This document shows, piece by piece, positions 6,480 through 35,062 of a stretch of 35,062 bases of DNA (position 1 is its first letter; the number at the start of each line of letters is the position of its first letter). Under the pieces are notes generated by a model. The model worked only from the letters and a program-made list of their open reading frames with translations. It ran no database searches and had not been told where the DNA came from. The stretch lies in contig SDOX01000018.1 in NCBI GenBank assembly GCA_004565275.1, forward strand, positions 12,306 through 47,367, written 5' to 3'. The position numbers and the translations under genes are program-made. The stretch is from Nannochloropsis salina CCMP1776 (Eukaryota; Sar; Eustigmatophyceae; Eustigmatales; Monodopsidaceae).

Positions 6480-6855
6480 GTAGGGTCGGAGGAGAGGGAG
6501 AGAGGGAGTGCGGGAGAGAGGTCAAAGAGTAGTCGGGGTGGTATCTAGTGGGAAGGTTCCAACTCGAGATGGACTCGTACAGAAGTCATGAAAAGAGGAA
6601 TGCGGTCAGCAGACTCTCGAGTACCCAGAAGATGACATTTTAGTGATGAAGCCGGGAGGACGGGGAAGCATGTGGCACGCGGGATGAGGGACTTTCGCGG
6701 CCCTGACATGACAACGCCCGCCTTTCCTGCGCGCGGAGCCAGGCATACTTTATGTTGACAAGCACGACCGGTCCACGTTTCCCTGTCCCTCGCCGCTTGC
6801 GCCCGCGTGTCCTGTACTTGACCGCCCCGATCCACACAGAGTGTCGTCCTGCCAG

Positions 6856-8443
6856 CATCCTGCACCCTCCCTTGGCATCCAGCCTCCTCATTTCCTCCCT
6901 CCATCCACATCACCTGAAACACAGGACAAACACAAAATTCTCATTGTCGGAGGCGGCTCTGGGGGCCTGGCCGTAGCGGCGCAGCTCCAAATCAAAGGTA
7001 TCCTCCCTCCCTTCTTCCCCCCCTCCCTCCCTCCCTCCCTCCCTGCCTCCTTCCCTCCCTTCTTCCTTCCCTCCCTTCTTCCTTCCCTCCCTTCAACTGA
7101 CTCTTCTTTTCCCCCTTTCGAAGGTGAAAAGGACGTAGCAGTAATTGAACCCTCGGAGAATCATTATTATCAGCCGCTTTGGACGCTCGGTGCGCCTCCT
7201 TCCTCCCTCCCTCCCTCTGTCCCTCCCTTCCCCCCTCCCTTCCCCCCTCCCTCCCTCCTTTTCTCCCTCTTCTCTTTCCCCCTCAGCTGCGACCGCCTGT
7301 CTTCCTTCTATCTTCTCCTTTACCTCCCTTCTCTCTCCTTCCTCCCGTCCTCCGCCCAACCGCCCTTCTCCTCCCTCCCTCCCTCCCTCCCTCCCTCCCT
7401 CCCTCCCTCCCTCCCTCCCTTCCTCCCTTCCCACCCAGTCGGTGGTGGGGGTCTTCCCAGGCAGCAAGAGCCGACGACCCGAGAAGGACGTCATGCCCTC
7501 GGGTGTCCACTGGCTCAAGGACAGGTAGGGGGGGAGGGAGGGAGGGAGGGAAAGAGGGCGGGAGGGAAGGAAGGACTGATGGAGCTCTGTGGTAGCGCCC
7601 CATGCCGTCACCGTCATGTCCCCCTTTCCTCCCTCCCCCCTTCCTTCCTTTCCTCCTTATCCCCACAGAGTGACTACATTCGACCCGGCGAACAACACGG
7701 TTACCATGGCCGATGGGAAAAAGGTGCTCCCTCCCTCCCTCCCTTCCCCCCTCCCTCCCTCCCTCCCTCCCTCCCTTCCCCTTCATCCTCACCTGTCCGC
7801 TGCAATTCACCCGACACGCTTCGCCTTTCAACCTCCTTCATCCACATTCTTCCCCTTCCTCCGTCCCTCCCTCTCTCCCCTCCTCCCTCCCTCATTTCCT
7901 GATACTGAGGTACCCGTCGTTATTCAATAAAAGCCTTATTGACTCTTTTCCCCCTTTCTCCCTCCCTCTCTTTCTCCCTCCCTTTCCCCCCCTCCCTCCG
8001 TCACTCCCTTCTTCCTTCCTGCCCCATCAGGAGGCGCCCGTCCTGGTCCACAATATGGGAAAGGTTATGAGGGGAGAGAAGCCCACGGCCGTGTACGATG
8101 GCTACACGTCTTGTCCGCTGATCACGGTGAGGACGGAGGGAGGGAGGGAGGGAGGGAGGGTAGGGAGGGAGGGCCCCCAGGTTCCAGCACCCGTCCGATC
8201 CTCACCACATGCTCCCTTTCTTCCTCCCCATCACTTGCTCAGGGGTACTCTTCCCTCCTCCTCGCTGAATTCAAGTACGGCGGGGAGGTAGCCGAAACCT
8301 TCGGGCGCGTCATCGACCAGGCGGAACCTCGCTGGGCCTTCCTCCAGCTGAAGAAGCACGTCTTCCCCTTTGCGTATTGGGAATTGTTCTTGCGAGGTCG
8401 GTGGTTCGGGACGCGGGGCGTCATTCCTCCGTCGTTTGAGTGA
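6856..8443 (+). CDS. SQOR: sulfide:quinone oxidoreductase, central part absent
   Basis: Exons: up to 6997, 7124-7189, 7461-7524, 7669-7723, 8031-8126 and 8243-8443 (TGA). All junctions keep frame. The first carries the FAD dinucleotide-binding motif KILIVGGGSGGLAVAA, then come VAVIEPSENHYYQPLWTL, a segment with DVMPSGVHWLKDR, and VTTFDPANNTVTMADGKK. The next recognisable exon is already the C terminus: YDGYTSCPLIT, LLAEFKYGGE, FAYWELFLRGRWFG. These match the two ends of the mitochondrial-type enzyme, which oxidises sulfide and passes electrons to quinone. The roughly 200 central residues are not found: the redox Cys pair, the second FAD-binding GxGD motif and the quinone site. Only a 307-bp CCCT-rich intron (7724-8030) lies there. 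As written the product could not work, so either exons were lost or the assembly collapsed. The N terminus is upstream and uncertain. Confidence 0.85.
7371..7420. repeat. (CCCT)n tract in SQOR intron 2
   Basis: About 12 CCCT units before the acceptor used at 7460. Confidence 0.95.
7728..7778. repeat. (CCCT)n tract in SQOR intron 4
   Basis: Starts four bases after the donor at 7724, at the exact point where the conserved central exons of the enzyme should follow. Confidence 0.95.
7926..7931 (+). other. AATAAA inside SQOR intron 4
   Basis: A perfect AATAAA on the sense strand within the intron that replaces the enzyme's centre. It could allow early polyadenylation or mark the end of a displaced fragment. 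It could also be chance. Confidence 0.3.
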
Positions 8444-9752
8444 GGCTGAGGGTTGGGGAAATCATGAGGGGAGAGGGTGAGGAGGAAGGAGGGAGGGCGG
8501 GCGGGAAAGAGGATGGGAATGGAGGGGAGGAGAAATTTGAGTGAGGGAGGGAGGATAGAAGAGGAGGTGTGCAGCGGTTTATGGCAGGCCTAAAGGCGGT
8601 GAATAATTTATAAAGAGACATGAATGAAGGAGGAATGAAAAGAAAGGGAAGGAAGGGAGGGTGATGGCCAGGTGGTGTGGTAGCCTGAAGAAGACTGGGA
8701 GGAAAAAAATGGAACGGTGGTGACGGGAAGAAGGAGTGGTGGGAATTTTGAAAGTTGGGTTCACTTGAGGGACCGAAGGTCAAGAAGAAACGAAAGATGA
8801 TGGTTATGAGAAATCAACGCGTGGCAACCCTTGCTATGAGGAGGGTGTCGATACAGCAGGTTTTGATTCCCGGTCTATGCGCGGGGACCCTCGCTTTCAC
8901 TGCCGTGCATGGCCCGAAATGGCTCAAGTGTCGTCGACAAATGATAGATTTTGAGTATAGTATTGCTAGATCCATGGGGTGTGTGAGGCTATTGCTAGCT
9001 CCATGGGGTGTGTGAGGAGGTTCCCACCACTTTCCATTTTCTTTTCTAGTCTTCTATCTCGCCCTATTCAAATTAACCCCATCAACGTTCGTTTCGCCAC
9101 GCATAAAATTGTCGTGAAGGGAGCTTGCCTCACGACGCCTGCTGCGCTTGAAATGTAATGTAGTCGCGATCAATGTACGGTAGATTTTTTTTTGCATGAG
9201 CAGCCGATAACTAGTAATCGTGATATGACTGCAGACAGGGAGTGCTGGCGACGCATGCGTTGTCCACATGATCGGACAGCTTTGCAAATACATGTGGAAT
9301 GGAACAAAACCACCTCCGAGCCGTCCCTTCTATCGATACACATTACGTGTATGACCGTATACGACGGAATGTTGTCTGTTCAAGGGACTGGGATAATGTT
9401 TCTTGTAAAGTTTGCTTCCTGTCCCTCCAACCTCCTGCTGTGGACGGAGGACAGTGGCCATGGCTGAGTGAAGACGGATGCCCTTTCTTGTGAACTTAGA
9501 CACAACAGAGCGGCATAAGTGGCGGCTGTCATGCGCATTGCTGGTAGAAAGACATGATTTCTCCTGACTCGCGTATGACATGCTGATGTCACGTAGACTA
9601 CCTCGTTGGACGGGGGGGCGCTTCTCGCACAGACGAAAGAGCTCTTATGAGAGGGCTCAGGAGCACACCAGTATTACGGCGAAAACGAATGACCATCTCA
9701 CGCTTCCCTTCATTAAAATTATTCTTCATGATAGGGTCCAGCCCTCCATAAA
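8444..9752. other. no gene recognised
   Basis: The first 300 bases are purine-rich 3' flank of the SQOR gene. After 9000 the sequence has ordinary composition and presumably includes the promoter of the ferredoxin gene; its ATG at 9753 has A at -3 and G at +4. Short frames here show no motif. Confidence 0.55.
8961..9018. repeat. 29-bp tandem duplication
   Basis: Two copies of TATTGCTAG(A/C)TCCATGGGG followed by TGTGTGAGG, starting at 8961 and 8990, with about one mismatch. Confidence 0.85.
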
Positions 9753-11893
9753 ATGGCGCGGCACCGGCGGAGAGAGGACCGGGGGTCTCCCTCCATCCTC
9801 CCTTCGAGCGCGGCTTTCCTCCTCTTCCTCGCTTGCCTTTGTGACAATTCTCGCGCTTTCTGTCTTTATCAAAGACCAGCACACCATTTTACCTCCTTCT
9901 TGCTACATGGGCGACAACCTTTATCTTCCTTCCCCCTCGCCTCCTCCTTCCCCCCCTCCGCCTCCCTCCCTGCCTCCTCTCTGGCCTCCTCCTCCTCCCC
10001 TGCGGAGCCCCTTGACAATGAGCGCGAGACCATCCAAGTGCGGTTTATTAACACGCCAGACGGAAATGATGTGGTCACCACGGCACAAGAAGGAGACAAT
10101 TTGATGAAGGTAGGAAGGAGGGGGGAGGGAACGGCGGAGAAGGGCATGGGCCACCGTTTCGTCTGCAACTAAGTTCGTTCCGTGCATTGATCTTCCTCCA
10201 GAGAAGACTGGCCTTTGGTCACGATGGAAGTATGTCCTCACAAGACTGGCATTGTCGCCTGTTGTCGCCTTTCCATGCCCTGACCTTCGCGCCCCGTACA
10301 AGATGTCTCCCTCCCTCCCTCGCTCCAAACCCTTCTTTCCTCCCTAACTCCCATTACCCCTTCTTTCCCTGTCAGGTCGGAGACAAAGCGGGCATCTCCA
10401 TCCCTCGAGCCTGCTGCACGGGCCTCTGCGGGACCTGTACCAGCGATTTACGAGACCCTTCCTATACGTTCAAGGGGGAAGACAAGCCTGCCGGCGCCCG
10501 CGAAGGCTATCAGACCATCCGCGCGTGCTCCACGCAGGTGACTTCTCCCTCTCACCCTCCCTCCCTCCCTCCCTCCCTCCCTCTTCTTTCTCTCTTTCCT
10601 CTCTGTGATTTTCCTGTGCGTCCTTCTCCCCTCCCTCCCTCCCTTTCCCTCCCCCTCTCTTGCCCTCGATCCTCGCTCTGGTACGATTTTATTTCCCCTG
10701 CCTCTCGCACGGCGTCTCAGCAGTGGAATGGAGTGTGCCTATCTCCTCCACCCTGCTCCCTGTTATAATTACCACCGACATTACCTTAACATCAAGGACC
10801 CGCCCCCCCACGATGCGGCCCTCCCCGGCCCTCTCAGCCTCCCTCCCTCCCTCCCTCCCTCCCTCCCTCCCTCCCTCCCTCCCTACCCTCCTTCCCTCCT
10901 TTCTCCTTCCAGGTCAAGCTTCCCCCAGACTGCGAGGAGATGGTGGTGGATGTCTATCGGATCAAGAAGAAGAAAGGGGCAAAAGGCCAGGAGGAGGACG
11001 GGAACTACATGCAGCGCTTCTCCGGTACGCCCTCCCTCCCTCCCTTCCTCCCTTAATTACGTATNNNNNNNNNNNNNNNNNNNNNNNNNNNNNNNNNNNN
11101 NNNNNNNNNNNNNNNNNNNNNNNNNNNNNNNNNNNNNNNNNNNNNNNNNNNNNNNNNNNNNNNNGGGAGGGAGGGAGGGAGGGAGGGAGGGAGGGAGGGA
11201 GTGGTGGCGCTTCTTCGAGACCTGGTGAATGAGTTGTGCGGGCAGGCGGGGCGCCCCAGTTAAGGCAGTCTCATCTCGCGGTGACCCTACCAGGCATTCC
11301 ATCGCCTCGCGGCCCGTCTTTCTGCTCGGCCCTTGAATGTTGCCGGGCCTCGACCCTGCGCTCTCTCTCACCTCAATCCTCTCTCTGTACCTGTGCGGGG
11401 TATATATCCATGTGTCCCTCTCACCTCGTCCTTCTCTCGTCGGGGTATATAACCACCTCCCCCCCCTTCCCCCAGGGGAATGGCCTTGAGGCAGAGCAAA
11501 CCGGACGGAGGCGCCGTGTGTCCCACGTGCAAAGGCGTCGGAAAGAATCCTTGTTTCAATTGCAAGGTACGAGGCTCTCTAGGTCGGGTAAATGGGGAGA
11601 AGATCGGATCGGTGGGGTGGGCCCGCAGACTCGGCGTCCTCAGGGGCGTGGCCAGGAGAAGGACAGGCACGGAAGGTGCTCTCTTCTTACAGGGGACTCG
11701 TGCATTGTCAACCCTTCCCGCGATCTCACGTGATTTGCGTCGCACTCATGCACGACATCTCTATTTTATTTAGGGGAAGGGAGTCCTGGTTTCGGGGCAA
11801 CGCTCTCTTACCTGCTATATCTGCAAAGGAGAAGGAATGTACTTTTGTGCCGATTGTCAGGCGACGGGGATGATTAGTCGGAAGAAGGTGTAG
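9753..11893 (+). CDS. plastid-targeted plant-type [2Fe-2S] ferredoxin with C-terminal DnaJ-type zinc finger
   Basis: Exons 9753-10109, 10376-10537, 10913-11024, then 11476-11566 and 11774-11893 (TAG). The N terminus has a hydrophobic core FLLFLACLC and SRA|F near residue 36, then a Ser/Pro-rich transit stretch. This is the two-part leader of complex red plastids. Exon 2 holds the cluster loop RACCTGLCGTC (C-x4-C-x2-C), and RACST supplies the fourth Cys. Exon 3 ends the ferredoxin fold with VKLPPDCEEM and VDVYR, then a Lys-rich linker. The last two exons carry four CxxCxGxG-like motifs (CPTCKGVG, CFNCKGKG, CYICKGEG, CADCQATG), as in DnaJ and the plastid BSD2-like proteins. Exon 3 ends in phase 1 but the 11476 exon needs phase 2, and a 100-N gap lies between, so an exon is probably hidden. 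If no exon links them, the zinc finger could be a separate gene starting at ATG 11480. Confidence 0.8.
10839..10884. repeat. (CCCT)n tract in ferredoxin intron 2
   Basis: About 11 CCCT units shortly before the acceptor at 10912. A shorter tract lies at 10556-10583, near the donor of the same intron. Confidence 0.95.
11065..11164. other. assembly gap of exactly 100 N
   Basis: A round 100 N usually marks a scaffold gap of unknown true length. The left flank is CCCT-rich and the right flank is GGGA-rich. The phase mismatch of the flanking exons suggests at least one exon is missing here. Confidence 0.97.
11165..11201. repeat. (GGGA)n tract at the right edge of the gap
   Basis: About nine GGGA units. 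In this window GGGA tracts lie just after intron donors, so a donor inside the gap is likely. Confidence 0.92.
11365..11455. repeat. imperfect tandem duplication in a ferredoxin-gene intron
   Basis: CTCTCACCTC...CGGGGTATATA occurs at about 11365-11409 and again at about 11418-11454, with small length differences. Confidence 0.6.
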
Positions 11894-12873
11894 AAACACA
11901 CAGGAAAGTTGGATGGTGTGAAGGATGATATTGATATTGAATGCTTGTCAGCTTTTGAGTGTCTGCGAGATGAGAGGAGCATCATGGAAAGTAAAGAAAG
12001 GATAAGTACATATCCGAGAGCCAGATTGATGGAGCGAGGATGACTCTTGAATGGAGAATGAAGAAAAATTGACAGACAACTTTGCCGCAAAGCTCCCTTG
12101 TTTCCACAGGTTAATACCTCTTGTTTCACATCGAGATGCAGAGAGGGAAGGGGGGGGTGTTACAAGGTGCCGTCTCACGTCAACGAGGACAAGAAGCGCA
12201 CTTGAGGGGCAAGATTGTGATAAAATTCCTCTCCACGCCCATTCTTTTCATACACTTCCCCCCTTCTTTTTGTTTCTTGTACCTAAAATTAGTGTGGCTA
12301 CCCTCAAATTGTGGTGCTCGTCACGCTTAAGCCGTGCTGCCCTACTTTTTTACCCCAGCCGTTCTGGTTCCATTAATTTTGAAAAATGCCATGCTCTCGA
12401 ATTATAGACGTCTGCGTGCCCTTCCTTGAAAACGATATGTTTTCTCTTTGAACGTGACATGATAGGGCTTTGTACAATATTCTAGAAAAAAATATTCTTT
12501 TATGTGAAGGCGCGGCGTCTGCTTTCCAGGGTAGGGGGGGTAGGCGAGATCAAGTTGATGTTCGCCAGTTGCTTGCGGGAACGCAAGTTCTGGGAACCAC
12601 GTGCAACACAGCCATTCAAAGGCATGATCAGACGCTAGAAATTGTCTCGAAATCATAATTGAATTCTTTAAAACGAAAAGGTGTAATCGATGAGGCGGGA
12701 TATGTATAAAATATTGGCTGAGTCTCACGCATTTCCTGCGAGCTTGCCCTTTGACATTCCGAGTTTGTGTTTCCATTCACGATACTGCAGAAATGAGCGG
12801 GCCCCGCTGGCGAGAATCATTATTCTAAAAGAGGCATCAGGAGATACTCTGTCCCAGGGGTTCATAAGATTCC
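11894..12873. other. no gene recognised
   Basis: Relatively AT-rich spacer between the zinc-finger stop and the antiporter start. It should contain the 3' UTR of the former and the promoter of the latter. No motif-bearing frame is seen on either strand. Confidence 0.55.
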
Positions 12874-15800
12874 ATGTCAAAGGCCAACACCACCACGGCC
12901 TCCCCGTCGGACCATTCCGAAGTGACGGGCGGGGTTCTTGCTGGCGCCAACCCGCTCCATTCTACTGTTGCCCTTTTCCTTCTCCAAGTCGTCATCATCA
13001 TGGCCACCACGCGAATCCTAGCCTACGGGTTACATTACTTGAAACAACCGAGGGTGATTGCTGAAATTCTGGCGGGTATCCTCTTGGGCCCATCAGGAAT
13101 GGGCAACATTCCCGGCTGGTTGTCCAACGTCTTCCCCGACAGGTCCCTCCCCTTCTTGACACTGGCAGCTAATGTTGGTCTTATTCTATACATGTTTTTA
13201 GTGGGCTTGGAGCTCACACCCGGGGGTAAGTTCGGAGGCCATGTACGGATAGAAACCCGTGCGCAGGCGTCTTTGTATAAATAATTTTCTCTTGTGGGGG
13301 GGAGCACACCGGCTTACACCTTGCTCGCCTCGATAGCTGATTTGGATTTTTAATCGAATTTCTTATTTTCCCACTTGTTCCTCCCTTCTCAAAGCGCTTT
13401 GGACAAACGGTGCGTGCGGAAAGGTGGAGGAAATAATGGGCCAGAATGTTGTGCCTTCCCTTGGAATGGGTTCACGACACTCACCCCAGCCTCCTTGTCG
13501 TGTCCACAACTCCTTTTCACAGCGAGACAGTCAGTCCTGATTAGCACGGTCGGGATCGTCTTTCCTTTCCTTTTGGGCTGCGGGGGAAGCGTTGTTCTCT
13601 ACCGTCACCGAAAAAACACGGAAGAGGTGCCCTTCTCCTCGTTTCTGCTCTTTACCGGGCTGAGCTTGTCCATCACCGCTTTCCCAATATTGGCACGGAT
13701 ATTGACGGATCTCAACCTGATGGAGACGGAGGTGGGCGTGATGACGATAGGCGCCGCCGCCTTGGGGGACGCGGTGGCGTGGTGCTTCCTGATACTGGTC
13801 ATCTCCATACTGCACAGGTGAGTAAAAGCAGTCTCTCTCGAGGAAAAATGGATGTGTCGTTGCCTAGGGAGAGTATGTGGTGCGATGGGTAGGGCCTGTG
13901 GGGTCTTGGGTGCGACGAGGCGACCGAGGAAATGTCGTGTGGTCAGTATGTCTGGTGGGATGGGCTGCCTGGCCTCCTTTGCCTCTTTGGGCGGTCGGAC
14001 AAAACTTAGGGTCGCCGGTACACGCCTGAAGAAATATACAGGGTTGGGGTTAGGGGTAGGGTTAGGGTAGGCTTCAGCCCTAACATTTAAGTCCATGGCC
14101 GCATCTTCTGAGTCCTCACCTTCAGCCTCGTATGTCAGAGACACTGGCATCCCCCTTGCCTGTCTCACAGGGGGCGATAAGTCTACTAACTCGGACACGC
14201 CCCTTTGACCTGATATCCACACCCTCATTTCCCTACAGCTCTACCCTCCTGAACGCGCTCTATGTCTTTTGCATCGTGCTCGCCTATGGGGCCCTGCTCC
14301 TTCTCCTGGGCCGACCCCTCCTTTCCCGGCATCTAGGACGGGCAGCCCGGGCAGGAAGCGAGACCTTACAACGGTCACTTCTAGCGTTGACGTTTATGGC
14401 TATTTTCCTTTCTGCATTCTTGACTGTCAGTGCACGGAGGAAGGGGCAAGGGGGCGGCCAGGGGCAAGGGATTCGACCCGCTTTGCTCTTGTGGGCCGGA
14501 GGGGGGGGGGGGAGCGATCCTCCGAAAGATTCGACGTCTTTTCCTCTTGTCTGCGGCTCTCGCACAGCGCAGCACCACTGTCCATTGTATCGATTTACCA
14601 CCACACTGACCGTAATTTATCGCGTCACCTGCAGGACCTGGCTGGCGTGCATACTATCTTCGGCTCCTTCTTGCTCGGTCTCGCCTTTCCCATCAACCCC
14701 TCCACCCTTCGGCTTGCGAAAACGATCGAGGACTTTGCCTCCATTGTCTTCCTCCCGCTATATTTTGCCGCGTCTGGGCTCAGAACACAGGTGGGGAGCC
14801 ATGGGTATGAGTTTTGGTTGAGGTGGGTAAGCCAGAGTCACGGGGAGGAGGAAATATGCCCGGTCGCACTGGCAGACAGCCCAAGGGGTCATCCCACCAG
14901 GGGCCTCCCTTGTGCCACTCCTTCCGGGCCAAGGCGAGGCAAAAAAAGGCGGAGGGACGCGCATTCGTTTCGAGACCTTTCTTGGTAGACCCGGGCTATG
15001 CAGCCTTCGGCTGACGGCCCATGTGCCCCTCTCTCGCCCTTTCCCTAGCTTGCCAGTCTTTCTAGCCTTCGGGCGTTCCTGCTCTTTCTCCTCGTGTTGA
15101 CGATTGCCGTGGTGGGGAAATTTGTGGGATGCGCCGCTGCGGCTCGCCTGGGAGGGAAGATGCCCTGGCGCGAGAGTTTCAGCGTGGGGGCTTTGATGAA
15201 TACACGGTGAGTGTCCGGCGAGTGGGAGGAGGGCCGAGGGGAAGAGGGATCAAGCAAACGCGTGAACAGGTCTTTCGTACAGGTGGACGAGGGGGAACAG
15301 GGGTAGGAGAAAGTTGTTCCTAAGGGACGAGCCCGTCGTGGCTCCCGGACCCTGACATTTTCCTTCCGCTTCGAACCCTCCAGAGGTCTCGTCGAGTTGA
15401 TTGTGCTGAATCTGGGGCTGGACGCTGGAGTGATCGATGTAGAGCAATTCACCATCTTTGTGCTCATGGCCCTTGTCACGACCTTTGCCACGTGTCCGGG
15501 TATGGTTGGCCTGTTGTTGAGAGGATTGTCGGCTCTGCATATGTTTCTGTCCCATGCCCTGCTCATGAATCGCATTGACATGCTCTCAAGCGCATTCCTG
15601 CGTCCTTCATTTACCCCTTATTCCTTGACCTCGACCAGTGGTCAGCTGCCTGTATCCTGTCGAAAAACGCGTGAAATTCGGGACAAGGAGCGCCGTGGAA
15701 GGAGGAAAGCTTCTAGAAGGAATGCGTTTTTCACGCGCCACGAGGAAATCTGGGTCCCAACGAACCCGCACAAGCGTGCCTGCTCTGGCAGAACCTGCGG

Positions 15801-17617: not shown

Positions 17618-18238
17618 AGACAGTATAGATGCATGACACCAAGGGGATCTGGCGGAGGATGCGACAAGAATGATTCTGCTTGCGCTTTGACATGTCGGCA
17701 TATCTGTGTTGATAATGTTCGGGCGTGACGACGGGCTTTATCAAGGAGGCGGACGGTGATTGATCCCGAGGGCCAAGAAAGAGGGGAAAGAGCTGAAGAA
17801 TAAGACCTAAAAAAGACATACAACCAGCACGGCATATATAGGGAGGTTCGAAAGGACTAAAAACATAGTGACTTCTGTGATCACTCAGGCTTTCACTCCA
17901 AATAGACCGCGGGTGGCGCTTTCGGTTGGATACATTTTTTAAGTATTTACTTTCCAGGCTCACATAATTTATGCACAAACAGTAGGGCGCCCGCCACGTA
18001 TTCCCCCTTCCACAACCCCCCGGAGCATTGTGAAACGAGTGGAAGTGGGCCGAAACAAAGAGAAGAATCCACAGGGACCTCATTCTGTGCTGTCTAGGCG
18101 CCAGTCTCTACTTCCTCCTTGTCGTCATGCTCCCCCCCCCGGCGCCCCTCCTGGACGCAGCCCGCCAGATCCCACTTCTCCCCACCCCGAAAGCTCCCAA
18201 CCTCCCAAAATCATGGCCGTGCGACGGCATTCAATGTC
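17618..18238. other. tail-to-tail spacer
   Basis: About 620 bp between the stop codons of the antiporter (+) and IMP3 (-). It must hold both 3' UTRs. No gene or clear structure is seen. Confidence 0.6.
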
Positions 18239-19584
18239 TCAATTTCCCAGCAGGTCAAAATCGTCCAATTTGTCGTTGTACGCCACCACGGCCCGCTTGA
18301 TCTTGGAGCTATCCACCCACGTCAGGAAATCCTCTAGGCTCCGGGTTACAAGGAAAGTCGGGTCGGTGACAACTGTGGGAAGGCAGGAAGGAGGAGGGAA
18401 AGAGGAGGGTGACCCTGGCGGAGGAGGAGGGGCAGGGTGCAGGGCGCGAGACACAGCCCGATGGCCGGCAAGGAGGACCCGCACGGGCGACTCAAAAGAC
18501 GACCAGGCCCCTCCCCTCCTCTCTCCTTTCCCTGTGGCCTTCAGCGCCCCGGCCAAAGACCTGCCAACGCCCACGATTTCTCCGCAGCCTCTCATCGACC
18601 CCCTCTCCCCCTCCCTTGGCTCCTCCTCCCCCGCCTCAACCCCTCCTTTCCCCCCTACCTGTGGGGCCGACCCGGACATGACCCTGTTCGATGAAAGTAA
18701 CCGCCTCCTTTAATGTCTCCGCCATCTTCATCCGCACCATCACCACTGGCAAGCGGCGACGGCAAAAGGCAGAGGCGGCCAGGGTCTCGCACTGGCTCAA
18801 GGACTTCTTTGTCGGGATTAAGCCCATGTTGTAGAGCTTCGACAGGAGCTGGAGAGGGGGAAAAGGGGCATGCTATGGTCAGGCTCGCCATGTCAATCGT
18901 GGGAATTTAAAATTTCCCTCCTGGTCGGTACATCTCTAGCCTTGAAAGAGTGCATTTGGGTGCCAGGCCCTCCCTTTGAGAAATATCTTCGCATCTACGC
19001 CACTTCCACCTCATTCCGTCGACTCGTCCATCATCAAGTACATTCTTCTCAATACATTCCATGCAGCCTGTTCTCAACTTTGTTCTCTTAAGATCACCAT
19101 TCTTAATCAGTAAGCCTCATTCCCCCCTTCCAATCTCATCATCCCTTTCTCCTCCCTTCGTCTCCTTACATCATCTGTCATCTTGATCCGGAACTCATCC
19201 TCCGGTTTCAGATCCTTCAGCTTAGCCGTTAACTTGGTTATATGCCCACAAATTTTGTTATACCTATCAAGAGAAAGGGACAAGAATTCGGCAAAAGGAG
19301 ACAGTGAACCGGGAGAAACTATGGACAGATAACCAAACACAGTAGCCAATGATGCAGCCACGGCCTCGACATTTAGCGTCACACGTTAGGTTCCGCAATT
19401 GCTCTCATCTCTACGCCATGTACAAAGTCTTCGGTTTCTTTCTTGCTTACTTGACATAGTCCTCCCGATCCTGGATGTGGTAGCGCCGCAATATTTTGAT
19501 TTCTCGGATGTTCTGGTCACTCTTCCATTGCAGGAAATCGACCTTCTTCAGCAGTTTTTGCTCGTGGTGCCGCAGTTGCCGCAT
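18239..19584 (-). CDS. IMP3: U3 small nucleolar ribonucleoprotein IMP3
   Basis: Four exons on the - strand: 19584-19451, 19263-19170, 18848-18659 and 18372-18239. Phases agree and give 183 residues, the usual IMP3 size (184 in human). The start [20 protein letters not shown] matches the family N terminus, and [16 protein letters not shown] and [13 protein letters not shown] follow. The S4 RNA-binding domain covers roughly residues 107-165 ([26 protein letters not shown]). The C terminus is [11 protein letters not shown]3 binds U3 snoRNA with MPP10 and IMP4 in the small-subunit processome and helps U3 pair with pre-18S rRNA in the nucleolus. Intron 3 has the purine-start/pyrimidine-end layout in weaker form. 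Nothing appears broken. Confidence 0.97.
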
Positions 19585-21073: not shown

Positions 21074-25749
<4,676 letters not shown>

Positions 25750-27493: not shown

Positions 27494-29383
27494 CTACCCG
27501 GAGGAAGCCGGAGCCGACTGGGTGCGGCGAATGATGGGCACGGAAGATTTGCGTTCAAGACGCACCACCGGCATGTTCGGCTCCCGACCTCCATGTGAAC
27601 CTCCTTCCCTCCCTCCGCGCAGCGCCAGCACTTGGCACCGGGCCCGAGTCGGGTCAAGGCCGTTGAAGGTCATGTCCACGTCTCGGAGGGCCGGGAGGAG
27701 GACGGGGCTCAAGAGGATGGGGAGGAGCAAAGTGGCAGGCTCGTCCGACATCCCGTTCACCGCCAGGTCCAGGGACTCCAAGCCCTTCATCCCTCCCTGT
27801 TGGAAGCACGCGGCGACGTGCGCGAAGCCAAAGGGGCCGAGCTCGTTCGAGCGCAGGCTTAAACTCCGCAAGCGCGGGCAGGAGCCTTCGGCCAACGCCG
27901 CCATCAGAAAGCCTACCCCTTCGGCATGGATGCCGTTCCGGCCCAAATTCAAACGCTCCAGCCCTCGCACCGCCCCCCGTCGGATCGCTTCCGACAAGAG
28001 GAAAGCACCTTCGGCCGTCATGGCGTTGTCCTCCACGTCCAGGCTTTTCATCGCCGGTTGTGGACGTTGGATCAAGGCAGACGCCAGCAGCGCCGTCCCC
28101 TCCGCGTACAAATAATTGCCTCCCACGTCTAACCCTGCCAAGCGCGGGCAGGTCCCCCGGGTCAAGAGGGAGCCGACCGAGGCGGCCCCCTTCGAGCCTA
28201 TCTTGTTCCCACGTAGGTCCAACCAGGTCAAGGCGGGGCACCGGCCTTGGCCCAGCGCCTCCGTCAGGGCGGCCGTCCCGTCCCCATAAATCCGGTTCCG
28301 GGAGAGAATCAAACGGCGCAACGCCGGCACCGCCCCTTGCGCCAGGGCAATGGCCAGGGCCTCGGCGCCTTGCGGGTACAGATGGTTGTCCGACAAGTCC
28401 AATGTCTCTAAGCCTCCCCCCCCGCCCAGACTCAGGGCTCGAGCCAACGCGCGGATGCCCTCTGTGCTCACGGCGCTTTCCGGTATGGCCAGACGACGGA
28501 GATGGGGGAGTTTCGAGTCCACCAAGGCCTTAGCCAGGTACACCAGACCCTTGTCCGTCAAGGTATTGTGACCCACCGAGAGCTCTTCCAATAACGGACA
28601 GGTCGCCTGACTCACCGCCTCGATGATCAAAAGCATGCCCTCCGCGTTCGCCTTGTTCCCGTCCATGTCCAATACCCGGAGGTTCGCCCCCGCCCCTCCT
28701 TTCAATGCCTTCGCCAGCACGGTCACGCCACGGGAACCCATCCCGTTCCCTGCCAGGCGCAGCACCCGTAGAGATGGAGCCAGCCCGTGAGTCTGCATGG
28801 CAATGCTCAACGCCTCCGCCCCCCCTGGCCCGATCCCGCACGCTGTCAGGTTCAACGAGTCTAACTCAGGACACGCTCCTCCCCGCAATCGCTCAGCCAA
28901 CATTCGCGTCCCACAGGCACCTAAACGACGTTGAGAAAAGTCGAGCGAGCGCATTTGTGCGCAGGCATTGATGCCCATCAGATCCAAGAGGCTGCGGACC
29001 GATATGGCGTCCAGGCTCAAAAACGACATGACATGCTTCCACAGTTCGGAGGGCAACGGGAACCTGGGAGAAGCCTCCAGACAAGACGACGACGAAAAAG
29101 AAAGGCTGCTTGTGTCACTGGCAGCGCAGGTGGAAGATGGGAGGCTCATTGCGATCCGACTGGCCGTGGTTTGCGTCGTGGACGACCATCGAGCTGCTTT
29201 GCTTCGTCGTCGGTTCCTCAAGGCGACTGTCTCCAAGCTTGCCCCTGCGCCCAAAGCTTCCGGGGTCAAAGGAGCATTTTGTGTTGTTAGCAAGCCCGCA
29301 GCGGAAGGCGTCGTGAGGACGAAAGAGGCATTTCTTTCCTCCGCGTCGACACCTTCCAAGGTGGAAAATCGCCTTGTGGTCAT
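27494..29383 (-). CDS. intronless F-box-like / leucine-rich repeat protein (RNI type)
   Basis: One uninterrupted frame of 629 residues on the - strand, from ATG at 29383 to a stop at 27494, in contrast to the intron-rich neighbours. Residues 1-105 are Ser/Thr-rich. An F-box-like segment (PLPSELWKHVMSFLSLDA) follows near residue 110. About fifteen leucine-rich repeats of 28-32 residues then run to about residue 580, each with an LxxLxLxxN-like core (LETLDLSDNHLY, LTWLDLRGNKIG, LERLNLGRNGIH). The repeat class is ribonuclease-inhibitor/NLRC3-like. With the F-box-like segment, a substrate receptor of an SCF ubiquitin ligase is possible; a plain protein-binding scaffold is the alternative. The tail holds a GGRE-type stretch from a GGGA tract, then RKSSVP and RTQSAP, which both fit 14-3-3 mode-1 sites. 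Confidence 0.88.
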   Translation of the reverse strand: MTTRRFSTLEGVDAEERNASFVLTTPSAAGLLTTQNAPLTPEALGAGASLETVALRNRRRSKAARWSSTTQTTASRIAMSLPSSTCAASDTSSLSFSSSSCLEASPRFPLPSELWKHVMSFLSLDAISVRSLLDLMGINACAQMRSLDFSQRRLGACGTRMLAERLRGGACPELDSLNLTACGIGPGGAEALSIAMQTHGLAPSLRVLRLAGNGMGSRGVTVLAKALKGGAGANLRVLDMDGNKANAEGMLLIIEAVSQATCPLLEELSVGHNTLTDKGLVYLAKALVDSKLPHLRRLAIPESAVSTEGIRALARALSLGGGGGLETLDLSDNHLYPQGAEALAIALAQGAVPALRRLILSRNRIYGDGTAALTEALGQGRCPALTWLDLRGNKIGSKGAASVGSLLTRGTCPRLAGLDVGGNYLYAEGTALLASALIQRPQPAMKSLDVEDNAMTAEGAFLLSEAIRRGAVRGLERLNLGRNGIHAEGVGFLMAALAEGSCPRLRSLSLRSNELGPFGFAHVAACFQQGGMKGLESLDLAVNGMSDEPATLLLPILLSPVLLPALRDVDMTFNGLDPTRARCQVLALRGGREGGSHGGREPNMPVVRLERKSSVPIIRRTQSAPASSG

Positions 29384-30833
29384 CTTCTAAAGATTTGCGT
29401 GTCCACCTCCTTCTGGCTGGCCTGTTATTGAATGGAAAAGAGAGGATAAAGATTTAAGTAGGCGGTTTACCGTTCATATACTTCCTCGATGGAGGAGGAT
29501 ACGAAAAAGAGAAAGAGGAAAATTGTTGCGAGGTAGGGACACATCATGACTTGCGTAAATCGGGTGAAAACGAAAATTTCAAGCCGAAATGTGTAATTGT
29601 TGTGTTTATTGAGAATAAAAGGCTTTACGAGTTTATCGATAGCGGGTGAAATCGGTGGGCGGCACGTGACGTCTCGCTGGGGTTTGGAAGGAACAAGACT
29701 CGGCTTGTCGAGGACGTTCGAAATAAAATGAGCACGCACCATCTCCCATCTCTGCAATTAAACAGGTCAGCATTGTTCGCAAGTCCCTCCGAGAAAAATG
29801 CATGTCCCTGAAGACAGTAAAATACAGTCCAATGACCCAACGAAAAAAAACTTGCGCGCTTCGCACCAAGACCGGTGGCTTCTGGTTTCCTTTATGTCGT
29901 CCATTTGAAGGCCGCACCGGCTTGGACCAACGGCTGACGAAGATTTTGAATTTTACCGTTTTTAAGCCCGGGGAGGTCGAGTCCAGCCAAAAAAGGCGTG
30001 GCGACCCAGCTGGATGCCCGGCAACGATAAAAACCACGCAATATTGTGGTGTATGCCCGTTTAAGCTTGTAGTGTGATGAGGTAGCACGCGAGGGACAAA
30101 TATGATTTTGAAAAACTTGGTCCAACGGCCCAAGGAGTACGTTGGGAAGCGCGGGAAACTCTCGTACTCGATCAATCTACGTCGCCTTTAGCTGGTGATA
30201 AATCTACGGTGATATCAAATCCCCCGTATTCTTTCCAAGCACTTCAGATATCTTGCTTGGGATGATTAACTAAGGTGCAGTGAATAGCTTGTATGTGTTT
30301 CTCTGGCTGTCGTCGATTCGCCGGAAAGACATCACGCATGTGTCCAACTTCATTTGTACAAGCAAAGAGCCGCCTACAGCCAAAAATGCCCACAACTCCG
30401 CCTCCGAAGCTTTTGATTGCCATCCCGGGACCCTCATAAAATCGAAAAGCTTGTCTAAACACCGAAGCCACGCCGGATGTACAAAAACAGTATGGAAGGA
30501 AGAAGGATGAATCCACCCTAGTTTGGTTAGAGGAAGTGAGCTCATCGAGGGGACGAACGTGAAATGAGGAAAAAAGGATTGGAAACTCCTTGTAAAAATC
30601 AAGAGAAGTAGCCAATTGTTTTCACGACGTGATTGATAGTGCTGTGCCACCCATATCTTTCGTGACTCTTCTTTCCAAACATTCCATGCTAAAACCATCT
30701 GTTTCAGTAACGACTGCTTAGCCCCTTAGTTCTATGCCTCATTTACGTTCACCAAACCCATCAATTTTGCTTCTCGTCTTTTGTATCCCTCTTACCCCCT
30801 TTCTCCCTCCTCGCCTCCCCCCCCTCTCCGTCC
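29384..30833. other. no gene recognised
   Basis: Upstream region of the LRR gene and downstream region of TYW1. It is AT-richer than its surroundings. Open frames of 90-180 codons occur on both strands around 29630-30175 and 30244-30698 and overlap each other, but none has a recognisable motif or convincing splice partners. Confidence 0.5.
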
Positions 30834-32755
30834 CTACCCGCACCCACTATCTGTTGGCCTGTATGGTACTTCCTCCACCACGCCCGCCTTATTCCTCCTG
30901 AAACGCGTGTCCACAGGGTCAAATCCCTCTTCGGGCGCCCCCTTGAGGGCCCATGCGGGGGTCTCCGCGCAATAATCCGAAGCGTCGAATTCGGTGCCAT
31001 CCTTCTCGAACTGAACGCACGGTCCATCGATAGTCAGTGACCCAGTGACAGCGAGCAGGGAAAGGGAGAAGGGGAAAGAAAATGAGAAATAAAGAAGAAG
31101 GTATAAAGGTCTTATTCAGTGCCTTTGCTACTCGAGATTGCCTCCAAAACCTCCTTTTTGACACCTTCTTCCCCTTCCTCCCCATCTGTCCCCCCCTGCA
31201 ATCCCTCCTCCCTACCCGCTCGATCAAATCGTGGAATTTCGCATAGTCGATCCAAGTGTACCATTTCCCCCCCCGGTGGAACGTCTTTTTCCGCGCCAGA
31301 AGCGTGCAGCAGGAATGAGCGTGCTCCGCCATGAATTCGTATTCGCCTGTATCCAGAGAAAGGAGGAAAGGAGGAAAGGAGGGAGGGAGGGAGGAAGGGG
31401 GAGAGGGAGGGAGGGAGGGAGGGAGGGAGGGAGGGAGGAGGGAAGAACCTGGCTAAGAAAGAATTATAATTTTCACTCGCACACACACCACCCACTTCTC
31501 TTTCGCCTTTCCTCCCTCCCTCCCTTCCTCCTTCCCTCCCTCTCCCCCCACCTCAAGCTCGTCCACGTAGTCATACTCGGCCATGTCCGTCACGGTCACA
31601 GCGAAATGGTACCCGGAGATATTCATGGCGAAGGCTTCTTTCTGCGAGGGAAGAGGGAAACGTGCGATTGAATGATATTCCTCAATACCGACAAGATGTA
31701 TCGCGCCCGTTCGCCTCCACCCGTCCCTTCCTCCCTCCCTCCCTCCCTCCCTCCCTCCCTCCCTCCCTCCCTCCCCACCTGGAAGACCTCAGCCAGCTTC
31801 CTCCCGCTCCCAGTCCCGGAGCCCACCAATACCCGCAACGGCACCTGCTTGATGCCCCCTCCCTCCCTCCTTCCTTCCTTCCTTCCCTCCTTCGGCCCCT
31901 GTCCACCCTCCGGCTCCACCCCCTTCTCTTCCGAAACTTGGCACCCGCACCTTCCTTCCCTCCCTCCTTCCCTCCCTCCTCCACAACAGCCCTCTCCCGC
32001 CACCTCGGGCGCTTCCTGCGCGGTCTCTGCTCTGGGCGTCAAGGTACGTGTGATCAGGGACACGGGCTCCGTGCCACTGCCTCCTTCTTGCGTGGGCCTC
32101 CCCACCGGCGATTTCGGGGCCCGCCCCTCCCCCCTGCCCTCGACCCTCCAGAACCGAAGGGGGAGGAGGACAAGGAGGAGGGTGCCGATGGTAGGGAAGA
32201 TGAGGAGATGGGAGAGGTGTCCGGCGAAGAAACGACCGCCTTTGGCGTACCTTCCTCTTTCCCACTTTCAACGGGTCCTTCGCCCTCCCCTCCCTTCCAA
32301 ACCGTCTCCTTGGATGCCCCATCCTCCTCCTCGTTCCACTCCGTTTCCGCGGTCTTTCCTTCACTTGCCACGCCTTCTCTAGCCGCCACTTCCTCCCTTT
32401 CCCCCCCAACTACCTCATCCGTAACCTTCTCTGGATGGCTTTCCTCAGGGGTCGCCGCCATAACAGCGGCCGGTGGGCCGTTCGACCACAAGAAGATGAA
32501 GAGGGGCAGTAAAAGGAGTAGGAGAGACGCAACGATGGGCACCGCCAGGGAGGAGTAGATCGAGGCGTAGTGCTTGGTTACCGCCCATGCCTGTGTAAGC
32601 TGATCGGTAGCCCGTTCCACCAAGGTGGGGGGGGGAGGAGGGGGAGGTAGGGGAGGAGGGTAGAGCCAGTCGTACACCGCCACCAAATAATCATAGGTGT
32701 TGTATTTGCTCTGTGGCATGCTTTTAATCGTCTTGAAAAGGCTTGAGGGCTTCAA
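30834..32755 (-). CDS. TYW1: tRNA wybutosine-synthesising protein 1 (TYW1), catalytic centre absent
   Basis: The - strand start MKPSSLFKTIKS at 32755 is followed by a hydrophobic segment (LLLLLLPLFIFLW, near residues 75-90), fitting the membrane anchor of eukaryotic TYW1, and by an acidic linker. The flavodoxin start RVLVGSGTGSGRKLAEVFQ ends at 31779. Exon 31641-31552 continues it (YHFAVTVTDMAEYDY). The next exons are already the family C terminus: 31346-31216 (EHAHSCCTLLARK, GGKWYTWIDYAKFHDL) and 31010-30834 (TPAWALKGAPEEGFDP). The rest of the flavodoxin domain and the radical-SAM core with its CxxxCxxC cluster site, about 400 residues, are missing. Exon 31552 ends in phase 0 but 31346 needs phase 1, so these two are not natural neighbours. 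TYW1 normally builds the tricyclic wybutosine core on tRNA-Phe at the ER surface. The frame switch within the linker (about 32050-32110) is unresolved. Confidence 0.87.
31377..31440. repeat. GGGA tract (CCCT in the transcript) in the TYW1 intron at the missing core
   Basis: Lies between the two exons where the radical-SAM domain should be, just before the acceptor at 31347. Confidence 0.93.
31731..31774. repeat. CCCT tract (GGGA in the transcript) after a TYW1 donor
   Basis: In sense orientation it is GGGA starting a few bases after the donor at 31778. Confidence 0.94.
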
Positions 32756-33894
32756 TGTGCGCTGATAACGCGTAAACGACTGCTGGATCCGAACCTAATT
32801 CAAAGCCATGCCCGTCTATCATGCGATGCAGCACCTCGGCTGTTCTGCTTTGTGGTGACAGTGAGGAAAAATACAATCAGAGGCCCTGTCAGCTCGTGCT
32901 ATGAACGATAATGCGCACTGGTCGCCCTTGTGCCTCTCGTTTCTTTGTAAAAAACGTTTCCGAGAGCGGTATGCAATCTCATGCGTGGAAGTCGACTGGT
33001 GTGGGACTCTTGAATTCTTGTTCTGTCTACCGCCTCGAGCTTCATTCGCCCGCCCCCAGGTTTTTACCCGCGATGCGATGCCAAGAAAACCAAAAATCGA
33101 CTGCCACGCCGTTCTCTGTCATCGACAAAGCAGGGTGCACACGGTGTCTCGCGCGCCGTTCCATGTTAAATCGTGTTTCGTGGAAGGAAGTAAATTATTG
33201 GCAAGGATATGAAAGCTTGGCTACTGTTTTTCGCTTTGCCGGGTAGCTTTCCACCACGCGACAACGTCGTCAAAATTGACATGCAAACCCTCTCTTTTTT
33301 CGTTGTGCCCGTCAACATCACGTCTTTCGTAACAGTTGAGTCTATAGTACATAGCTGATATGTTTTGAAGTAAAGGAAAATTTTTTCCTTCTTCAAGGAG
33401 ATCAAGCTACTTCGATAGATGTCACGTTGCTCACGAAAAGGAATGAATTTGACTTATAGATGCTGCATAAAACAACACATAGCGACAATGTTTATCCCCC
33501 CAAAATTCTAGACCAGTTCTATGTTTTCGCGGGAGTGCAACGCAAACACTGCTTCAACCTTCAAAAGAGGAAGTCGCCCGCGAATTACTTTGGAGAGTGG
33601 TGACTGGGAGAAAGAGGGTGGCTGGGGGGGGCTAAAAGATGCTAAGACAGAATAAAACAAGAACGGAAAAGTCTCGAGAATACAACTCCAAAGAAAAACG
33701 CGCTCGGCAGGTTGAGCCCTTGCAGAGCAATCCTTGACAAGGTCTCGAGTGGGAGGCGCCCCTAGTATCTTTTCTTCTATGCCGACAACCGAACCACACT
33801 CGTAGATCTACCCGAGGCCTGCCGGAAAACAGGCGTCGTGCCTTTTCCCTCACACTCGGCGGGGACACAATCTGCGTTGCACGAAATCCCCGCC
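32756..33894. other. no gene recognised
   Basis: Spacer between TYW1 and the WD40 gene, both on -. It should contain the WD40 3' UTR and the TYW1 promoter. Overlapping + frames at 32901-33246 show no motif. Confidence 0.55.
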
Positions 33895-35062
33895 TTAGAA
33901 CGGAGAGAGCTTGACGAGCGTGCCCTGACGGCTGGCTACCCACAGGCACGGCCGTTTCCCTTTCGTTTCCATACCCGGACTTTCCATGGTCACCATTTGG
34001 GAGACATCTGCGTCCAATTGGCCACGGCTGATCGGCTTGGCAGAGAGCGTCTCGTAGACAGAGAGGCGTCGGGACTTCTCACCCGTGACCAGGACGTACC
34101 TGGCGGGGGGGGAAGGGCAGGGGGGGAAGGAAAGGGTGATGAGAAGGGACGCGTCTCTTTTTTTTGCGCGATTGACACAAAACGAGGGATTGTTAGGATC
34201 CCTGCTCGTTCTTATTTTGCTTGTCGTGGCCCCAACGTATACCGGTGCCCTCTGCCCGCGGCTCCCACCTTTTCTCCCCTATTATTTTCCCTTCACATCA
34301 CCTCTTCTTCTTCCCCCTCCTTTCCTCTCTGCCCTCCCTTCTCCTTTCACTCTCTCCTCCCTGCTCCTCACCGTCCTTGGTCATAAAATTCGGGGGCGGT
34401 GATGGCGCTCTGTTTCTGCACCAGTGAGGAGACGTGCCCAAAGTAGGAGCAGAGGGGCTCCCCTCCTCCCTCCCTCTTTCCCTCCCTCCCTCCCTCCCTC
34501 CCTCCTGCCTTCCGAAGGTCCCACAGCCGTAAATGCTGGTCCAATCCCGCTGAAAGGAGGAGGTGGGGCTATGAGAGATGAGGGAGGGAGGGAAGGAGGG
34601 AGAGTGGGTGGTGGTAAGGGAAGGGAGGAGGCATCAGATTGCGAGAATTCCCTCCCTCTTTCCCTCCCTCGTCTTTTCCCCTCCCTCCCACCTCCGAGGG
34701 GTGCCAACGGACGGTGTGGACGGTCCGGGCGTGGGCATGAGGGATGACGAGGCAGGAGGAGGAGGTAAGGGAGGGGGCCCGCAGGTCGACGACCTGGGAA
34801 AATGAGAGCGAGGGAAGGAGGGAGGGAGGGGGGGAGGGAGGGAGGGAGGGAAGGGGAGGGACCATCAAGCAGTTTGTATGTCGCGCTCTTCCCCGGGAAC
34901 CGGGACGGGCATTTGGCTGAGGGGCGGGGAGGTGAGGCGGAGGGAGGAGGGGAGGACGGAGGGAGGGAGGGAGGTACCTTGACCGTCGCAGTCGTTCCCC
35001 GAGACGGCAAGGCGGTGCGAGCCTTGCTCCAACGAGAAGCGCACGCACTTGATGACCGTGTC
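33895..35062 (-). CDS. WD40-repeat protein, C-terminal part (5' end beyond window)
   Basis: Exons on the - strand: 35062-34978, 34916-34863, 34793-34692, 34549-34372 and 34099-33895 (TAA). WD40 features are DTVIKCVRFSLEQGSHRLAV, VVDLRAPS, ARTVHTVRWHPSE and a clear repeat end GLDQHLRLWDLRK. The last exon reads YVLVTGEKSRRLSVYETLS, SRQGTLVKLSPF. These are successive blades of a beta-propeller, so a scaffold role is inferred; the exact family is not recognised. Exon 34793-34692 reads as WD40 only in a frame one base off from that of its neighbours. In exon 34549-34372 a GGGA tract after DLRK is open in frame (Gly/Arg/Glu-rich). It is either translated or removed as an intron with a GC donor (AAG|GCAGGA) and an acceptor at GTGCAG. 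Confidence 0.84.
34816..34850. repeat. GGGA tract (CCCT in the transcript) in WD40 intron 2
   Basis: Fills most of a 69-bp intron that is pyrimidine-rich from donor to acceptor in sense orientation. Confidence 0.92.

Follow-up and report, generated by a model that had tools for sequence, protein, structure and literature searches.

In a stretch of 35,062 nucleotides of Nannochloropsis salina CCMP1776 (contig SDOX01000018.1, positions 12,306 to 47,367, hereafter the window), several introns carry GGGA units after the donor and CCCT units before the acceptor, which raises the question of whether these complementary ends pair across the intron and assist its splicing. The reading that we consider probable is that these are ordinary U2-type introns overgrown by a microsatellite, in which a one-sided filter at the acceptor has left complementary ends as a by-product rather than a splicing device.

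Thirty-two introns were curated in the window, a set that omits one gene near 1.6-3.4 kb and another near 4.0-5.0 kb. A gene finder gave 26 introns, of which twelve were kept unchanged (including six of the 22 tract introns described below), and the rest of the curated set was placed by reading frames and GT-AG. On reading the sequence, fourteen gene-finder introns were dropped or replaced: 6480-7438, 13818-13946, 14067-14238, 14491-14567, 14823-15065, 15500-15638, 18589-18658, 23823-24183, 31347-31484, 32084-32250 and, at the end of the MAP kinase gene, four on an antisense frame (21206-22058). The candidate 18657-18849 was excluded for want of GT..AG. Protein homology backs nine of the 32 junctions. 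All 32 introns have GT..AG, which was also a condition of curation, and fit U2-type spliceosomal introns with a learnt consensus of GTRNG at the donor and mostly CAG at the acceptor, from which individual introns deviate at some bases. For comparison, 77 predicted introns were taken from 200 kb after five of 82 were excluded as shorter than 75 nt.

A tract was defined as at least two exact tandem GGGA or CCCT units within 60 nt of the intron start or end. Tracts were found near an end in 22 of the 32 window introns, which are given below with the donor tract before the acceptor tract (G for GGGA, C for CCCT); the labels of the TYW1-like and WD40-like genes are those of the first-pass annotation.

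6998..7123, plus strand: SQOR intron, C..C; 0 end pairs
7190..7438, plus strand: SQOR intron, C..C; 0 end pairs
7525..7668, plus strand: SQOR intron, G..C; 53 predicted end-to-end pairs, MFE -88.6
7724..8030, plus strand: C..C interval in SQOR, taken as an intron but a candidate assembly collapse; next exon aligns from human SQOR residue 315
8127..8242, plus strand: SQOR intron, donor GGGA, pyrimidine-rich acceptor without a 2-unit tract; junction gapless against human SQOR
10110..10375, plus strand: ferredoxin-like gene intron, G..C; junction without gap against ferredoxin I, Fer2 match spans the junction
10538..10912, plus strand: ferredoxin-like gene intron, C..C; 0 end pairs
11025..11475, plus strand: ferredoxin-like gene intron, donor CCCT; has an N gap and, in its interior, a GGGA tract
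24662..24835, minus strand: MAP kinase intron 1, G..C; 55 end pairs, junction within MAPK alignment
24337..24531, minus strand: MAP kinase intron 2, C..C; 6 end pairs, junction within MAPK alignment
24023..24183, minus strand: MAP kinase intron 3, C..C; 10 end pairs, junction within MAPK alignment
23823..23965, minus strand: MAP kinase intron 4, C..C; 2 end pairs, junction within MAPK alignment
23511..23724, minus strand: MAP kinase intron 5, G..C; 45 end pairs, flanks kinase-like by reading, frame discontinuous
23245..23419, minus strand: MAP kinase intron 6, C..C; 0 end pairs
22923..23095, minus strand: MAP kinase intron 7, G..C; 34 end pairs, gapless junction
22633..22789, minus strand: MAP kinase intron 8, G..C; 37 end pairs, gapless junction
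22382..22518, minus strand: MAP kinase intron 9, donor GGGA, acceptor without a 2-unit CCCT tract; 40 end pairs, gapless junction
31347..31551, minus strand: TYW1-like gene intron, G..C; 18 end pairs
31642..31778, minus strand: TYW1-like gene intron, donor GGGA; 35 end pairs
34100..34371, minus strand: WD40-like gene intron, donor G-tract, acceptor without a 2-unit CCCT tract; 28 end pairs
34550..34691, minus strand: WD40-like gene intron, G..C; 33 end pairs
34794..34977, minus strand: WD40-like gene intron, C..C; 0 end pairs

Eight of the 32 introns were G..C, with complementary simple repeats at both ends, four had GGGA at the donor only, nine were C..C, one had CCCT at the donor only and ten were tract-free, counts that vary with the tract threshold. 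The donor side of the 22 tract introns carried GGGA in twelve and CCCT in ten (binomial p 0.83), or 12:9 when the doubtful interval 7724-8030 is left out, and the acceptor side carried CCCT in 17, no tract in five and GGGA in none. This SQOR interval may be an assembly collapse, because the middle of the protein is apparently absent between the flanking exons. Neither C..G nor G..G introns were present among the 32, and acceptor GGGA was absent at all 12 window and threshold settings tried. The first-pass annotation had described about a dozen G-first introns, about ten pyrimidine introns and no complete intron in reverse order, in agreement with the twelve, ten and zero counted here, and the eight introns it offered as examples all lie where it placed them with GT..AG in sense orientation. 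Its rule of GGGA at the donor and CCCT at the acceptor stands in that the polarity is real and tracks gene direction on both strands, but the orientation is fixed at the acceptor only. Among the 77 other introns, donor-side tracts were eight GGGA to one CCCT, and the acceptor side had five CCCT and two GGGA. Both acceptor-GGGA cases of the 200 kb (C1:73566 and C2:64375) were single-intron predictions by a 24- or 22-nt exon and are probably false, though they were kept in the counts.

Genome-wide acceptor counts were made once per site for tract3-N3-33-CAGG relative to a reversed control. CCCT3-N3-33-CAGG was in excess (666 versus 284 in the control) while GGGA3-N3-33-CAGG was not (685 versus 679). 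Pyrimidines made up a fraction of 0.88 of the final 25 nt in introns with donor GGGA and 0.92 in those with donor CCCT, compared to 0.69 in tract-free window introns and 0.64 in the 77 others, and the 3' signal of tract introns is therefore strong and not replaced. A gene for the large subunit of U2AF is also present in the genome (match at E 1.4e-107 over positions 8-508 of 510).

On the donor side, raw counts of GGGA:CCCT following three pattern pairs were 347:43, 101:80 and 14:6, GGGA being higher in each. Relative to reversed controls, themselves imperfect in G-rich surroundings, GGGA showed no excess after GTRCG (101 versus 116) or GTRAGT (14 versus 26), and the excess of AGGTRNG before GGGA3 (347 versus 207) carries the caveat that this motif is imitated by imperfect GGGA repeats. 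A clean genome-wide GGGA preference was absent, the excess over control being gone in two of the three patterns. There are hints of a donor-side G preference in the 8:1 tracts of the 77 introns and in a slight G excess downstream of the donor in unselected introns (skew 0.068, CI 0.011 to 0.125, 61 introns), which count against the by-product view. Donor strength by our own matrix (means of 2.80 for G-donor, 1.68 for C-donor and 2.61 for tract-free introns) was set aside, since that matrix is biased towards G, and the raw order of tract pairs in window DNA (GC 9, CG 13, CC 12 and GG 27 at 30-250 bp) was uninformative because C-then-G pairs can also span an exon.

The donor GGGA could alternatively be an intronic splicing enhancer, working by way of G-tract binding proteins or an RNA quadruplex and without involving the 3' end, a reading we regard as improbable. 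It draws on the G excess, the 8:1 tracts and the AGGTRNG counts above, and on quadruplex-type spacing no more than 70 nt from the donor in nine of the 12 G-donor introns compared to three of the ten tract-free introns, so that the quadruplex raised by the first-pass annotation is borne out as an option. However, CCCT occupies the same donor position in ten introns of the same genes, and the donor patterns lacked a GGGA excess in two cases and were imitated by repeats in the third. G-triplet elements were reportedly found in small vertebrate introns by McCullough and Berget in 1997; the introns here likewise hold G runs within short introns, but unlike those elements the window donors have no consistent preference of G over C (12:10).

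That the two ends can pair over tens of bases, as had been claimed, was supported for the G-donor introns by predicted folds. End-to-end duplexes in the 12 G-donor introns averaged -65.2 kcal/mol versus -35.4 in whole-intron dinucleotide shuffles (mean z -5.0), with means of 36 predicted end pairs in these, 2 in the ten C-donor and 12 in the ten tract-free introns. End pairing in the 77 other introns was slightly above shuffles (mean z -0.41, p 0.004), which counts against the by-product view. The values of the G-donor introns would favour introns in which base pairing between the GGGA and CCCT arms draws the splice sites together and helps their recognition, but we think this unlikely in view of the following. 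Acceptor CCCT was present in 8 of 12 introns with donor G and in 9 of 10 with donor C (Fisher p 0.32; small numbers), and no co-occurrence of donor GGGA and acceptor CCCT beyond independence was found among the 22 tract introns. Donor G-skew and acceptor C-skew were negatively correlated in the 32 window introns (rho -0.35, p 0.05) and in the 77 others (rho -0.24, p 0.04). In none of six groups tested did an intron's own ends pair better than swapped ones (permutation P 0.96 for the 22 tract introns), and the lengths of the G and C arms did not match in the 12 G-donor introns (rho -0.44, p 0.16). The median predicted distance between donor and acceptor in G-donor introns (10.5) was hardly below that of tract-free introns (14.5) or the 77 others (13), with 92.5 in C-donor introns. 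Two of the donor patterns were not above control, and the strong acceptor pyrimidine tracts and encoded U2AF are contrary to the stem-dependent, U2AF2-independent mode of splicing that marks bridging introns of the Lin et al. type.

The same genes also hold C-donor introns whose ends hardly pair. Among homology-backed introns of the MAP kinase gene, four G-donor introns had 34-55 end pairs and three C..C introns only 2-10; the latter, introns 2-4, are flanked by G..C introns, and homology backs these junctions except that of intron 5. End pairing is therefore dispensable in this gene. The earlier suggestion that the two ends jointly aid splicing was not upheld, given uncoupled orientation, equally good swapped ends and ten tract introns with about two end pairs.

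The tracts consist of exact head-to-tail units, which fits a tetranucleotide microsatellite, and (GGGA)4 was present at 6451 forward and 6192 reverse places (overlapping) in 26.5 Mb, with a tendency among the places listed towards low and high contig coordinates. Tracts of at least three units covered 12.99% of the 7,112 curated intron bases versus 0.54% of the 16,428 bases that belong to neither a curated exon nor a curated intron. Within 40 nt of the donor their cover was 0.352 versus 0.184 under circular shifts, none of 500 shifts being as high. Tracts were present in 22 of the 24 introns of five genes and in none of the eight introns of two neighbouring genes. This near-restriction to introns, donor hugging and gene-by-gene filling are not explained by neutral microsatellites. 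The amount of tract in the 5' half (either orientation) also correlated with the amount of CCCT in the 3' half (rho 0.45, p 0.01, 32 introns), an observation that counts against the by-product view.

A broader possibility, which seems unlikely although somewhat less so than either the enhancer or the bridging reading taken singly, is that the repeat was placed by splicing signals and not by chance, in repeat-defined or newborn introns where tracts act as enhancers and G..C introns also bridge. This reading rests on tracts lying almost only in introns, no more than about 40 nt from the donor or 60 nt from the acceptor, and gene by gene. Recent introns could have formed by GGGA/CCCT-rich DNA inserting into or expanding within exons of some genes. 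The near-confinement of tracts to introns and their presence in five genes but not in two neighbouring ones would agree with such an origin, as would the shorter exons flanking tract introns of the window (median 91, n=21, versus 156, n=10; p 0.001), but the difference in exon length was absent in the 77 other introns (148 versus 161, p 0.20), the intron cores are mutually dissimilar and the GT..AG ends resemble those of other introns, and we consider this origin very unlikely. A mobile, introner-like family with conserved ends, also proposed by the first-pass annotation, is scarcely credible: many introns do have similar ends, but the shared ends are a low-complexity repeat. With tracts masked, no matches were found among 109 introns at E 0.01, and the only intron core put to a genome-wide search, from the MAP kinase gene, was single copy in 26.5 Mb. 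Introner-like introns were rejected on these grounds, as no near-identical copies at unrelated sites were seen in either search.

Under the preferred reading of overgrowth with a one-sided filter, a (GGGA)n/(CCCT)n microsatellite, common in the genome and especially towards contig ends, would overgrow intron ends; both orientations would be tolerated beside the donor, and only the pyrimidine orientation would survive beside the acceptor. The 3' splice site requires a pyrimidine tract, which would exclude GGGA at the acceptor. Of introns bearing a tract at each end, such a filter would therefore leave G..C and C..C but never C..G, and with the donor orientation free and the acceptor orientation fixed about half of the tract introns would seem built to pair. 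We infer that the cause is selection on the pyrimidine tract and the source microsatellite growth.

In the introns described by Lin et al. in Genome Res, two repeats are said to co-occur beyond independence. These AC/GT-repeat introns of fish and lamprey have complementary repeats that bridge the intron and aid splice-site recognition, and G-, C- and GC-rich bridging repeats have been suggested for mammals, according to a review (PMC7404189). As in those introns, complementary simple repeats lie at opposite ends here with a potentially stable cross-intron stem; unlike them, the introns here have a set orientation at the acceptor alone, show no coupling of orientation between their ends, are unable to pair in about half of the tract-bearing cases and keep a strong 3' pyrimidine tract. 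Lian and Garner (2005), as cited in PMC10027321, tied complementary intronic repeats to alternative splicing, similarly as a means of joining sites, but the account given there does not place them in fixed polarity at the two ends of a single intron. Simple repeats in eustigmatophytes are concentrated at chromosome ends (PMC8570151), in keeping with the heavy simple-repeat load here, which is greater towards contig ends; the tracts here differ in being mostly intronic and acceptor-oriented, and the text searched does not contain the word intron. No published report of introns such as these was found by a full-text literature search, subscription papers being mostly outside its scope.

The case shows how a one-sided constraint can yield the striking pattern of intron ends complementary to each other, and the control that separates pairing from by-product is the introns of the same gene whose ends do not pair. 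If the restriction to introns and the donor hugging were true genome-wide, this lineage would be suited to asking whether microsatellites become splicing signals or seed introns.

The GGGA/CCCT pattern at intron ends is real, and its orientation rule is one-sided, with the acceptor fixed and the donor mixed. Tract bearing was defined as at least two exact units, read on the sense strand, within the first or last 60 nt of an intron, and 22 of the 32 window introns met this definition: eight with GGGA after the donor and CCCT before the acceptor, four with GGGA at the donor only, nine with CCCT at both ends and one with CCCT at the donor only. Introns that open with GGGA and close with CCCT, as described in the first-pass annotation, therefore exist, and the reverse order was again absent, GGGA being found at the acceptor of 0/32 window introns at all 12 window/threshold settings. 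By side, the acceptor carried CCCT in 17 introns and GGGA in none while the donor carried GGGA in 12 and CCCT in 10.

Introns were predicted with a small custom gene finder, for which the window and another 200 kb of its genome served as training sequence. A strand-symmetric non-coding model kept it, by design, from favouring either GGGA or CCCT inside introns. Window introns were then curated through reading frames and splice sites. In total 109 introns were used, 32 in the window and 77 elsewhere, each of the latter at least 75 nt. All 109 are predicted introns. The 32 come from a tract-rich region and are largely eye-placed, with twelve identical to the gene-finder prediction and the remainder placed or corrected by eye. 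Protein homology, gapless at the junction, backs nine window junctions (MAP kinase seven, SQOR one, ferredoxin-like one). Homology supports the identification of the MAP kinase, SQOR and ferredoxin genes, with a Fer2 match in the ferredoxin-like gene, and TYW1 and WD40 are putative labels from the first-pass annotation.

Tracts of at least three units made up 12.99% of the sequence of curated introns in the window, compared with 0.97% of curated exons and 0.54% of the remaining sequence, in which some unresolved genes lie. In two 100-kb blocks, tracts of at least two units covered 1.15% and 1.72% of predicted introns, 0.76% and 0.91% of exons and 0.25% and 0.23% of the rest. Tract cover in 29 introns was 0.352 within 40 nt of the donor versus 0.184 in circular shifts (0/500 as high) and 0.259 within 40 nt of the acceptor versus 0.175 (P = 0.016). 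Tract status goes gene by gene.

Tract-bearing introns per gene in the window
SQOR: 5 of 5
Ferredoxin-like gene: 3 of 4
MAP kinase: 9 of 9
TYW1-like gene: 2 of 3
WD40-like gene: 3 of 3
Two neighbouring genes: 0 of 6 and 0 of 2

Window tract introns adjoin shorter exons (p = 0.001), a difference not seen in the 77 other introns (p = 0.20). A GGGA tract at 34372-34549 lies within the WD40-like open reading frame, where it would encode a GREG-type repeat, so tracts can be exonic too. The MAP kinase exon at 22790-22922 begins with a coding pyrimidine run aligned to MAPK, and pyrimidine-rich sequence thus crosses the acceptor into the exon.

The genome searched (26.5 Mb in 103 contigs, with the window at bases 12,306-47,367 of contig 47) has a GC content near 0.55 and a heavy simple-repeat load, which together with a TTAGGG-like stretch at about 14.04 kb would fit a eustigmatophyte alga. 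Among the matches listed, GGGA/CCCT tracts tended to lie toward the low and high coordinates of contigs C1, C2, C6, C57, C70 and C72 with sparse middles, the extent of the contig being known for C1 and C2 only. In C1 and C2, unselected blocks between 200 and 300 kb held 9 and 6 tracts of at least three units per 100 kb versus 41 in the 35-kb window, itself at 12-47 kb of its contig. Simple repeats in eustigmatophytes are described as concentrated at chromosome ends (PMC8570151). The curated intron 13818-14238, in the gene at 12.9-17.6 kb, contains a telomere-like TTAGGG-type stretch (14035-14070).

Genome-wide splice-site counts gave a clean acceptor rule but not a clean donor rule. The search returned one match per start position, so that the direction starting at the splice site gave one count per site, and the matching direction of the reversed pattern served as control. 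CCCT3 followed by CAGG within 3-33 nt occurred 666 times versus 284 in the control, while GGGA3 in the same arrangement occurred 685 versus 679 times. For the donor, GGTRCG preceded CCCT3 80 times (control 47) and GGGA3 101 times (control 116), GGTRAGT preceded CCCTCCCTCCC 6 times (control 2) and GGGAGGGAGGG 14 times (control 26), and AGGTRNG preceded CCCT3 43 times (control 16) and GGGA3 347 times (control 207). The last count is confounded, since AGGTAGG also occurs within imperfect GGGA repeats. In all three pattern pairs GGGA had the higher raw donor count, so that the absence of a donor G preference depends on controls that are themselves imperfect where the surroundings are G-rich.

That the ends could pair over tens of bases was borne out in predicted folds, as introns with a GGGA donor averaged about 36 end-to-end pairs and their end duplexes far exceeded those of shuffled introns in strength (mean z -5.0). 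The two ends of the window introns showed no coupling in orientation: which tract stood at the donor gave no indication of the acceptor side (Fisher p = 0.32), and donor and acceptor skews correlated negatively, the opposite of the pairing prediction. Own ends were not superior to swapped ends, where a donor end is paired with the acceptor end of another intron, in either the 22 tract introns (-36.8 versus -40.7 swapped) or the 12 GGGA-donor introns (-65.2 versus -68.1), and arm lengths were unmatched among the latter (rho -0.44, p = 0.16). Over the full set of 32, introns with more tract in their 5' half, in either orientation, also tended to have more CCCT in their 3' half (rho 0.45, p = 0.01); what the two ends share is thus tract load, not orientation. 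In the MAP kinase gene, 34-55 end pairs are predicted for the GGGA-donor introns 1, 7, 8 and 9 and 2-10 for introns 2, 3 and 4, which have CCCT at both ends; homology backs the junctions of all seven. Intron 5 has GGGA then CCCT and intron 6 CCCT at both ends, with the reading frame broken around both. In predicted folds, the stems of GGGA-donor introns would keep the splice sites closed to much the same degree as those of tract-free introns (unpaired fraction at donor and acceptor 0.29 and 0.32 versus 0.32 and 0.38), CCCT-donor introns being more open (0.50 and 0.69).

Exons 23420-23510 and 23725-23822 (MAP kinase), 7439-7524 (SQOR) and 34978-35062 (WD40-like) are out of frame with their neighbours, which looks like small assembly indels; their sequence was used uncorrected. 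At SQOR 7724-8030 the middle of the protein seems absent between the flanking exons; here the assembly may have collapsed over a CCCT-rich stretch, so that 7724-8030 is perhaps not a single genuine intron. Given the probable indels and the possible collapse over a repeat, one intron and certain tract lengths could be artefacts.

AC/GT-repeat introns of fish reportedly have as their hallmark a co-occurrence of the two repeats beyond independence, which was looked for in the window introns and not found. That fish class, as described in PMC7404189, is the nearest system to the window introns.

Acceptor pyrimidine content was high in tract introns (0.88 with GGGA and 0.92 with CCCT donors), against 0.69 for window introns lacking tracts and 0.64 for introns outside the window. 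With the U2AF large subunit also encoded in the genome, nothing suggests a stem replacing 3' splice-site recognition. The explanation we favour, and consider fairly likely, is that ordinary introns would have been overgrown by microsatellites while purifying selection would have acted on the 3' pyrimidine tract. This model leaves the near-confinement to introns, donor hugging and gene-wise status unexplained. The 77 other introns carried donor-side tracts of GGGA in 8 and CCCT in 1 and acceptor-side tracts of CCCT in 5 and GGGA in 2, and their ends paired slightly more strongly than in shuffles (mean z -0.41, p = 0.004) but no better than swapped ends (P = 0.20). Unselected introns of 130 nt or longer (n = 61) had G in mild excess downstream of the donor (0.068) and C in excess upstream of the acceptor (0.152), and this mild polarity of ordinary introns may be what the repeats amplify.
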